Positions 21,458-23,226 of a stretch of 64,000 nt of DNA are shown here, in pieces. Both the position numbers and the translations under genes were made by a program. The notes under the pieces are model-generated. The model saw only the letters and a list, made by a program, of their open reading frames with translations. It made no database searches and was not told the DNA's origin. Source of the stretch: Streptomyces sp. NBC_01260 (GTDB lineage: Bacteria; Actinomycetota; Actinomycetes; Streptomycetales; Streptomycetaceae); NCBI RefSeq assembly GCF_036226405.1, contig NZ_CP108464.1, positions 8,122,001 through 8,186,000 of the forward strand, read 5' to 3'. Within the stretch, counting starts at the first letter, position 1; every line of letters begins with the position of its first letter.

Positions 21458-21943
21458 ATGCCACAGGTGAACGGCATATCCGGCGGAGAATTCGTCCCCC
21501 GGCCGTACGGCGGACCGGGCACCGGGCAGACACTCCCGGCCGGGCAGGAGCCCGCCCCGCAAGCCGCCGCGGCCGGTCCCGTCCCCGTGGAGCGGCGCCC
21601 CTCCGGTGAACTGGAGTCCACGGTCCTGGCGGCCCTCTGGGCGGCCGGCACCCCGCTCACCGCCGGTCAGGTACAGGAGGCGATCGGGGCGGAACTCGCG
21701 CGGACGACCGTCACCACCATCCTGTCGCGCCTCCTCGAGAAGGGCACGGTCGCCCGCACCAGGTCGGGACGCGGATTCGCCTACACCCCCACCGAGGACG
21801 CGGCCGGACTGACCGCCCGCCGCATGCACAGCGAACTGCGCAAGGACGAGGACCGCAGCACGGTGCTGGCGAGGTTCGTGTCGCAGCTCAGCGACGAGGA
21901 CGAGCGGCTGCTCCGTGATCTGCTCGACGGGGACGCCAGATGA
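21458..21943 (+). CDS. BlaI/MecI/CopY-family repressor
   Basis: 161 residues. The first ~48 residues are a Gly/Pro/Ala-rich extension not usual in BlaI. They are followed by the BlaI winged helix: LESTVLAALWAAGTPLTAGQ, TTVTTILSRLLEKGTVAR (recognition helix), then the dimerisation helices with FVSQLSDEDERLLRDLL. The family is normally inactivated by cleavage triggered by an M56 sensor protease, and the next gene (ATGA overlap) encodes one. The operator at 21399-21431 fits autoregulation and joint control of the divergent DedA-PAP2 operon. An internal start could remove part of the extension. Confidence 0.88.
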   Translation: MPQVNGISGGEFVPRPYGGPGTGQTLPAGQEPAPQAAAAGPVPVERRPSGELESTVLAALWAAGTPLTAGQVQEAIGAELARTTVTTILSRLLEKGTVARTRSGRGFAYTPTEDAAGLTARRMHSELRKDEDRSTVLARFVSQLSDEDERLLRDLLDGDAR

Positions 21944-22878
21944 TCTACGCCGTCTGGATTCCGCTGCTGGTGCCGTTCCTGGTGGTTCCCGCGGCCAGTC
22001 GGCTCGCGGATGCCCTGTCGCCCGTGCGGGCCGTGCGGCTGCTCGCCGCGACGGGCGCCGGCCTGGCCCTCTGCACCGTCTTCGCACTCGCGCTGCTGGT
22101 GGTCCCCGGCGCCGGCCGGCTGTCCGCCGTCGCCGCCGTCGGAGAGTTCGTGCGCCCGCTCGCCGCAGTCGAACCGGCCGTCGCCGTACCGCTCTCGGCC
22201 GCCGCGCTGGCGTTGCTGCTGGGCTGCGCCGTGGCCGTCACCGGCGCGGCCCGCAGGCACTGGGGCCAGCTCCACCGGGCCGCCCGCCCCGAGCGGAGCG
22301 ACGGGAGCGAGCTCGCCGTGCTGCGGGACACCCGCCCCGACGCCTACGCGCTGCCCGGACGGCCCGGCAGCCCCGGCCGGATCGTCGTCACCACCGGCAT
22401 GCTGCACGCCCTGGAACCCGCCGAGCGGGACGCGCTCCTGGCCCACGAGCGCGCGCATCTCACCGGGCGCCACCACCTGTACCTCGTTGCCGCCGAGCTG
22501 TCCGCCCGCTGCCACCCGGCGCTGCGCGCCCTGCGCGCACCCATGGGATACGCGCTGGAGCGCTGTGCGGACGAGGCCGCCGCGCATGCCGTCGGAGACC
22601 GCAGGGTCGCCGCCCGCGCGATCGGGCGCGCCGCGCTGGCCGCCCGGACGGCCGGAGGGGGCTCTGCGCCCCGCCCCGCCCCGGCGCTCGCCGCGGCGGC
22701 CGGGCCCGTACCGCGCCGGGTCGCCGCCCTGCTGGGCCGGACCGCCGTGCGCCCGCGCATCGGCCGCGCCGCCGCCGTGACCCTGATCGCCTGCCTGGCC
22801 GTCTCGGGAGCGGCCGCCCTCGATGCGACGCACGACCTGCACAGCAGCATCGAGGTCGCCCAGGGAGAAAACCCCTAG
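21940..22878 (+). CDS. M56-family membrane metalloprotease (BlaR1/MecR1-like, no sensor domain)
   Basis: 312 residues. It has two to three N-terminal transmembrane helices, a cytoplasmic loop, the zinc protease motif HERAH (169-173) with the third-ligand region ALERCADEAAAHAVG, and a last hydrophobic helix near residue 285. Unlike BlaR1 it lacks the extracellular penicillin-binding domain, so what it senses is unknown. It is coupled to the BlaI gene and probably cleaves that repressor. It carries no lipobox or signal other than its helices. Confidence 0.87.
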   Translation: MIYAVWIPLLVPFLVVPAASRLADALSPVRAVRLLAATGAGLALCTVFALALLVVPGAGRLSAVAAVGEFVRPLAAVEPAVAVPLSAAALALLLGCAVAVTGAARRHWGQLHRAARPERSDGSELAVLRDTRPDAYALPGRPGSPGRIVVTTGMLHALEPAERDALLAHERAHLTGRHHLYLVAAELSARCHPALRALRAPMGYALERCADEAAAHAVGDRRVAARAIGRAALAARTAGGGSAPRPAPALAAAAGPVPRRVAALLGRTAVRPRIGRAAAVTLIACLAVSGAAALDATHDLHSSIEVAQGENP

Positions 22879-23009
22879 GACCGACCCGGCTTCCGCGCGA
22901 TCGGCCCCCTCTGCGCCGTGCGGGCGAACCGTCCCTGCGGGAACCGCCCCGGCGCAGCCGGGATGACGCGGGCCCCGGCCGTCGACTCGCCGACCGGAGA
23001 GAAAACGGC

Positions 23010-23039
23010 CTGACAGCCCCCGCACCGCCGTGCTTAGCT
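23010..23039 (+). promoter_or_regulatory. Promoter of the ABC-F attenuator transcript
   Basis: CTGACA (23010-23015) and TTAGCT (23034-23039) are 18 bases apart. Transcription should start about 7 bases further on, at the leader ATG (23046), so the leader peptide would be translated without a 5' UTR. Confidence 0.5.
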
Positions 23040-23045
23040 GGCCCC

Positions 23046-23072
23046 ATGGGTTCGTACTACTTCTTCCGCTGA
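23046..23072 (+). CDS. Eight-residue leader peptide MGSYYFFR upstream of the ABC-F gene
   Basis: ATG at the predicted transcription start opens an eight-codon frame, MGSYYFFR, ending in TGA. Tandem Tyr-Tyr-Phe-Phe followed by Arg is unlikely filler in such G+C-rich DNA, because TAC and TTC codons are scarce outside genes here. It lies 155 bases before an ABC-F gene, with hairpins in between. Short upstream frames of this kind sense ribosome-targeting antibiotics: a stalled ribosome on the leader stops a terminator from forming. The role is inferred from this layout. Confidence 0.6.
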   Translation: MGSYYFFR

Positions 23073-23095
23073 CTCCGGACAGGGACGCCACCGCG

Positions 23096-23131
23096 CGACG
23101 CCGGGCGTCGATGTGTGACCCACAGGGTCAC
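23096..23131 (+). promoter_or_regulatory. Two hairpins between the leader peptide and the ABC-F gene
   Basis: CGACGC-CGG-GCGTCG (23096-23110) and GTGACCC-ACA-GGGTCAC (23115-23131) follow the leader frame closely. They may act as antiterminator and terminator, or hide a downstream element, depending on ribosome position. Confidence 0.45.
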
Positions 23132-23226
23132 CCCGCGTGGCGCAGTGCCCTCCGCCCGTTCGGCATCCCCGCCCGCCGCGCCCCGTCATGGGCCGCCGAG
23201 GCATGTCACCCGAGGGAAAGCTACCC

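Follow-up and report, generated by a model that had tools for sequence, protein, structure and literature searches.

The demonstrated precedent for the arrest proposed here is MsrDL (MYLIFM-stop), a leader peptide that controls the streptococcal ABC-F gene msrD through macrolide-dependent arrest at its stop codon (PMC10314930). According to that report, the ribosome comes to rest on the stop codon in the presence of erythromycin or azithromycin, the penultimate Phe clashes with the GGQ motif of the release factor, and the stalled ribosome covers half of the terminator. Replacement of the UAA stop codon by UGA lowered induction, and residues L3 and I4 were reported to be critical for drug recognition (PMC10314930). 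The ARE4 group of ABC-F proteins (CarA, SrmB, TlrC and OleB) is described as protecting against 14/15- and 16-membered macrolides (PMC6723617). Among the matches listed from the open literature, judged by titles and abstract starts, we found no aromatic leaderless upstream open reading frames (uORFs) before ABC-F genes, and a search with the peptide MGSYYFFR and its sub-strings returned a snail-sediment paper as its sole match.

The window analysed here is a stretch of 64,000 nucleotides from Streptomyces sp. NBC_01260. It contains the frame MGSYYFFR-stop, separated by 154 nt from an ABC-F gene (Table 1). A first-pass annotation of the sequence had described this frame, promoter elements that place the transcription start at its ATG, and two short hairpins between the frame and the ABC-F gene. 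All of these were recovered at the positions listed. The ABC-F protein passes the NCBIfam model NF000355 (ribo_prot_ABC_F, ribosomal protection-like ABC-F; 396.9 bits, cut-off 380) and fails NF000171 (ABCF_producer, the TlrC/CarA/OleB/SrmB family; 700 bits, cut-off 800). Because of this score below the ABCF_producer cut-off, its drug spectrum is uncertain. A scan of the window against Rfam gave no family at gathering score.

Table 1. Features of the uORF/ABC-F locus, in window coordinates
Feature	Position	Strand	Basis and details
WblC/WhiB7-like element GAAAAC, 3 nt, -35-like CTGACA	23001..23015	+	GAAAAC 23001-23006, CTGACA 23010-23015
-10-like TTAGCT	23034..23039	+	18-nt spacer from -35; 6 nt (GGCCCC) before ATG
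Probable leaderless uORF, MGSYYFFR-stop	23046..23072	+	ATGGGTTCGTACTACTTCTTCCGCTGA
Post-uORF leader, predicted long imperfect hairpin	23073..23163	+	MFE fold; arms 23075-23080 and about 23158-23163
Hairpin 1, 5 bp, GACGC/GCGTC	23097..23109	+	sequence, alignment of close relatives
Hairpin 2, 7 bp, loop of 3, GTGACCC/GGGTCAC	23115..23131	+	sequence, covariation
ABC-F Shine-Dalgarno region GAGGGAAAG	23212..23220	+	leader sequence
ABC-F ribosome-protection protein, 547 aa	23227..24870	+	profile matches, TlrC/CarA/OleB/SrmB-related

Two further observations concern this genome. The same genome has a second ABC-F gene (G000:C1:8526712-8528310, upstream stretch L089), 46% identical, which is preceded by no leaderless frame like MGSYYFFR-stop. 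Upstream of the uORF promoter, at 21458-22878 of the window, a frame matching CopY/TcrY, which we take to be of the BlaI type, overlaps a frame matching peptidase M48. The CopY/TcrY match is weak (26.6 bits, cut-off 122), and the two frames may be a regulator-protease pair.

The orthologs used for comparison came from ABC-F searches of 81 and 80 Streptomyces genomes, the second at an E-value of 1e-190. We kept the loci whose matched part was at least 65% identical, 47 in all (31 + 16); they share descent, so that counts over them are not counts of independent events. Four of the 31 are partial matches; that in G034 covers residues 238-542 only, and its more N-terminal part is 64% identical. 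A frame of 7-10 residues lies upstream of 46 of the 47 genes and specifies 32 different peptides, among them MGSYYFFR, MGSYYFFL, MRSYYFFR, MRSYYYFR, MGTLYFFL, MGSFYFFL, MGSYSYYFFR, MGSYRFSFFR, MGSHKHYFFL, MGAYHYYFFL, MASWYYFL, MAFYYFR, MTFYFFL, MAFYYFP, MVFFFFL, MRFFFFL, MRHFFFL, MAFLFFV, MDFYRFP, MTFHCFP, MGSHYDFR, MFAHYYFL, MCVHYLFL and MYVHYFFL. The single ortholog without a uORF, L036, is preceded by a stretch that looks, by eye, like the coding sequence of another gene.

The penultimate codon specifies Phe in all 46 uORFs. The inner positions tolerate H, L, R, S, D, C and W, and Tyr often stands in place of Phe. In a listing of 45 peptides that was conditioned on the penultimate Phe, the last residue is L in 24, R in 13, V in 5 and P in 3, to which L130 adds one L. 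The stop codon is TGA in all 55 leader entries (53 distinct), including L118 once its frame is corrected. To these figures can be added a scan that took no account of the peptide, asking for TANNNT, a gap of 5-8 nt, then ATG or GTG opening a frame of 3-13 sense codons. Exactly one such frame was found in 44 of the 47 orthologs, each with Phe as the penultimate residue (44/44). The scan missed L036, L130 and the window itself, where the -10 is TTAGCT; the peptides of the window and of L130 still have the penultimate Phe. Among 4700 dinucleotide shuffles, the same scan picked up a leaderless frame 59 times, never with Phe in the penultimate place, and a leaderless frame appeared in only one of the 47 reverse complements. 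Lack of conservation upstream of orthologs had been named beforehand as the observation that would count against the frame, and the locus passes this test strongly. The proposal of Tyr-Tyr-Phe-Phe-Arg as the arrest run stands in part: aromatic residues are kept, but the invariant portion is F-x-stop, and the octapeptide is one of the 32 variants found in 46 orthologs.

Across 23 distinct octapeptide loci, the uORF is on average 92% identical between pairs; the corresponding figures are 39% for the 60 nt upstream (ungapped) and 63% for the aligned post-stop leader. This set was picked by peptide, which favours uORF identity; the contrast with the shuffles (0/4700) is independent of that choice. 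The commonest changes in the uORF are swaps of TAC/TTC, TTC/TTT and CGC/CTC. Because conservation is at the codon level, we infer that uORFs of the MGSYYFFR type are translated. Codon 2 (23049-23051 in the window) is GGT or CGT at 23 of 23 octapeptide loci, and GGC occurs in none of the 55 uORF entries. This absence is odd in a GC-rich genome and perhaps reflects a need for an open 5' end.

The promoter of the window reads GAAAAC-GGC-CTGACA-18-TTAGCT-GGCCCC-ATG, and transcription is predicted to begin at the A of the ATG. For WblC promoters the consensus GAAAWY, 3 bp, TKGMNN, 16-19 bp, TANNNT has been described, transcription beginning 7 or 8 bp past the -10 (PMC7157823). GAAAAC and the spacing in the window fit this consensus; position 1 of the -35 and position 2 of the -10 deviate from it. 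TTAGCT departs from TANNNT, which stands at the same position in 44 of 47 orthologs. Of 50 related promoters, 72% have a run of at least three A/T between -48 and -41, counted from the uORF start, and 68% have one in the overlapping interval from -44; other 8-nt intervals between -60 and -13 have such a run in 0-8%, and the next rise is at the -10 box. A Shine-Dalgarno (SD)-like sequence occurs within 15 nt before the uORF in one case out of 43. L118, L037 and L129 were left out of the 50-promoter/leader set and of the SD counts. Since the promoter spacing puts the start at the ATG and an SD-like sequence is found in only that one case, initiation on the uORF is likely to be leaderless.

An inverted repeat, GAGACG-N3..9-CGT(C/T)T, was seen in the promoter region of 31 of 131 upstream entries (some of them duplicate loci) and of 15 of the 47 orthologs. 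Its carriers are L025, L026, L028, L030-L033, L119, L121-L124, L126, L127, L131 and paralogs, in which it lies about -290 to -92 from the ABC-F start; the window lacks it. It looks like a repressor operator, perhaps of the TetR type.

We also searched for the peptide without reference to the downstream protein. Exact MGSYYFFR-stop, as a codon-degenerate pattern, occurs in 6 contig stretches, all from Streptomyces, and in 6 of 392 genomes of the genus, that of the window included; in these genomes the reversed control gave none. Such a search had been proposed with the first-pass annotation, and an ABC-F gene (58-100% identity) lies directly downstream at 10 of the 12 exact-peptide loci (L001-L012, some duplicated between collections). 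The other two, L005 and L009, are identical in sequence and end 119 nt past the uORF start. The broader pattern M-x-x-[YF]4-x-stop matched once in each of 17 of 199 genomes of the genus (reversed control 0), with an ABC-F gene downstream at all 17 matches. At the level of the class, M-x-x-[YF]FF-[LR]-stop was found in 2 of 246 genomes, both times before ABC-F genes (reversed control 1). One class-level match, MRLYFFL-stop before an ABC-F gene of 54% identity, is from another family. A class-level search with the ABC-F protein at an E-value of 1e-150 gave matches in 8 of 98 genomes, which belong to 3 of the 62 genera covered, and for this reason we regard the uORF/ABC-F system as mainly one of Streptomyces in the genomes sampled.

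The leader RNA gives a less uniform picture. Each of the five pairs of hairpin 1 is retained by 11 to 13 of the 13 close relatives aligned, without compensatory change. For hairpin 2, 9 of the 13 leaders (6 distinct) could be registered by hand, and the 4 that would not go into this register were set aside; among the 9, both sides change at 3 of the 7 pairs with pairing retained. This level of covariation was reached by 7 of 500 shuffles, and slid registers gave 0 or 1 such pair. Among the pairs predicted by consensus folding of three leader groups, 1 in 12, 2 in 14 and 4 in 31 changed on both sides, a poorer result than for hairpin 2 registered by hand. In one subgroup, the GTCCGGGCA that immediately follows the stop in short leaders can pair with TGCCCGTAGAC further on; the consensus fold picked other pairs. 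Folding of the whole leader of the window is no better than that of shuffles (z 0.14; mean z -0.9 over 50 leaders), and the 12 bases that follow the stop pair with the remaining leader no better than shuffles do (mean z -0.25 over 50 leaders, +0.38 for the window). No U-tract is evident after the hairpins in the leaders, and a classical terminator is therefore not seen. Sequestration of the SD as the main output was considered and rejected: when the first 10 post-stop nt were masked, SD accessibility went up in 5 and down in 12 of 52 leaders, a set that includes L118 (wrong frame) and L037 (inner start codon) and leaves out L129 (no SD match). The ABC-F start codons of the compared leaders were chosen by SD match, which makes the count of 42 with an SD circular, and no argument here draws on it. 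The earlier view of the hairpins as an attenuator draws some support from the compensatory changes in hairpin 2, but none from a U-tract terminator, an SD switch or the post-stop pairing, and the events downstream of the stall proposed below are weakly supported.

The aromatic leader peptide is probably a built-in antibiotic sensor of the ABC-F gene, a role that had been suggested from the window and that the comparison of orthologs supports well. We consider it probable, on the strength of the sequences, that a drug-dependent leaderless arrest peptide stalls the ribosome at F-x-stop and so relieves attenuation of the ABC-F gene, with macrolides as the likeliest inducers. Arrest at termination is suggested by the fixed penultimate Phe, the variable last residue, the stop codon that follows it, the length of 7-10 residues and the aromatic run. 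As judged from the promoter position, the transcript would begin at the A of the uORF ATG, and a ribosome starting on the bare 5' end would make the aromatic peptide of 7-10 residues. In the absence of drug, termination would be quick, the GC-rich leader after the stop would fold, and read-through into the ABC-F gene would be low. With a tunnel-binding drug in the ribosome, most likely a macrolide, the aromatic chain ending in Phe-x would block peptide release. Given the invariant F-x-stop, the ribosome would stall with its P site occupied by x and its A site by UGA. By covering the first nucleotides of the leader it would keep the leader from closing, and the ABC-F protein would be made and rescue ribosomes. 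WblC may additionally raise transcription. Macrolides are the first candidate inducers because ARE4 ABC-F proteins are described as acting on them (PMC6723617). For the window the macrolide step is an analogy, because its protein is an ARE4 relative that scores below the model cut-off.

The same arrest peptide could instead act on translation, as in ermC, with the leader hiding the ABC-F SD and the stalled ribosome setting it free. Many leaders have pyrimidine stretches (e.g. CCCTTCC) that, by eye, could pair with the SD CAGGGAAAG, and in many the TTCC after the stop is complementary to GGAA. The masking of post-stop nucleotides described above, however, gives no consistent rise in SD accessibility, and the ABC-F start codon is predicted to be open on average whether masked or unmasked; we regard this output as unlikely.

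The nature of the signal can also be read in other ways. Aromatic codon runs are typical of pheL-type amino-acid attenuator leaders, and the run in the uORF might likewise sense scarce charged tRNA-Phe or tRNA-Tyr; the wblC leader, moreover, is described as responsive to amino-acid starvation (PMC12421871). What is conserved, nevertheless, is position rather than composition, since Phe is fixed at the penultimate codon while the inner positions vary and often have Tyr for Phe, and the downstream gene serves ribosome protection rather than an aromatic pathway. An amino-acid attenuator is accordingly very improbable. A passive uORF, either a general sensor of translation speed or a bystander of transcription-only control by WblC, would make do with any slow ribosome, or with none. 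It would suit the WblC-like promoter architecture and the precedent of the Streptomyces ABC-F uORFs MLV and MVGDDDISG, which stall at the start codon (PMC12421871), where sequence should hardly matter. Retention of F-x-stop ahead of proteins in which up to a third of the residues differ would scarcely be expected of such a uORF, nor would stronger conservation than in the remaining leader, and we give this explanation almost no weight.

More distant paralogs point to a possible sister group. Leaderless frames were found in 12 of 60 paralog rows scanned: 10 are MGSL-stop or MGTL-stop (8 distinct loci, 54-60% identity), one is MLP-stop and one MRLYFFL-stop. The pattern ATGGGTWCCCTGTGA occurs in 11 of 150 genomes of the genus (reversed control 1), with an ABC-F gene downstream at 9 of the 11 (L132-L140, position 1501). 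The MGSL-stop-type paralog L100 scores 861.5 bits against NF000171 and passes the TlrC/CarA/OleB/SrmB cut-off (800), and most named relatives among 120 listed carry the TlrC/CarA/OleB/SrmB name. MGSL-stop would then be MGS-YYFF-L-stop minus its aromatic core. Because chain growth is halted by 16-membered macrolides when only very few residues have been joined, MGSL-stop could sense those of these drugs that extend to the peptidyl transferase centre. A modular leaderless termination-arrest sensor of TlrC/CarA-like ABC-F genes, in which peptide length would read drug geometry, the F-x-UGA peptides of 7-10 residues answering to tunnel macrolides and MGSL-stop to 16-membered ones, is a tentative and rather doubtful extension.

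With these uORFs the macrolide-type ABC-F relatives of actinomycetes gain a candidate sensor defined by sequence, in which one residue is invariant and for which a clear-cut arrest at F-x-UGA is predicted. Study of uORF consensus in relation to ABC-F spectrum has been called for (PMC10201436), and the length variants together with the MGSL-stop sister group open that question to direct test. An arrest peptide of the leaderless kind would also offer a clean system for stalling on mRNA initiated at its 5' end.

Among known systems, the tiaA and are5sc leaders of S. coelicolor are similar in that they precede Streptomyces ABC-F genes and have uORFs and long 5' leaders (PMC12421871). Their uORFs are drug-responsive, but they encode MVGDDDISG and MLV and come with ribosome binding sites, the genes are of the ARE5 group, and the start-codon stall is described with lincosamides, streptogramin A and pleuromutilins, not with erythromycin (PMC12421871). 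The lmrC attenuator of S. lincolnensis likewise combines a Streptomyces ABC-F gene with ribosome-mediated transcription attenuation and a mapped premature terminator (PMC8546547). It differs in that the gene is ARE5 and uORF2 overlaps the terminator, its loss leading to constitutive expression; no aromatic motif is apparent in the account given of it (PMC8546547). A conserved uORF consensus before ABC-F genes is shared with cplR, vmlR, vmlR2 and lsaA, whose consensus is 3-4 residues long (MR[I/M], MIN, MK[L/Q] and MAGN) and whose stalling is said to have little context specificity (PMC10201436). Stop-codon arrest has been demonstrated for MsrDL and is proposed here for the F-x-stop peptides of Streptomyces. 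MsrDL has six residues, UAA and a demonstrated terminator, whereas the Streptomyces uORFs are apparently leaderless, use UGA only and contain an aromatic run; phylum and ABC-F group differ as well (PMC10314930). Since UGA lowered induction by MsrDL, and L3 and I4 are critical there, a family that always uses UGA need not work in the same way. The two nevertheless have in common a short hydrophobic uORF before an ABC-F gene, a penultimate Phe and RNA structure directly downstream (PMC10314930).
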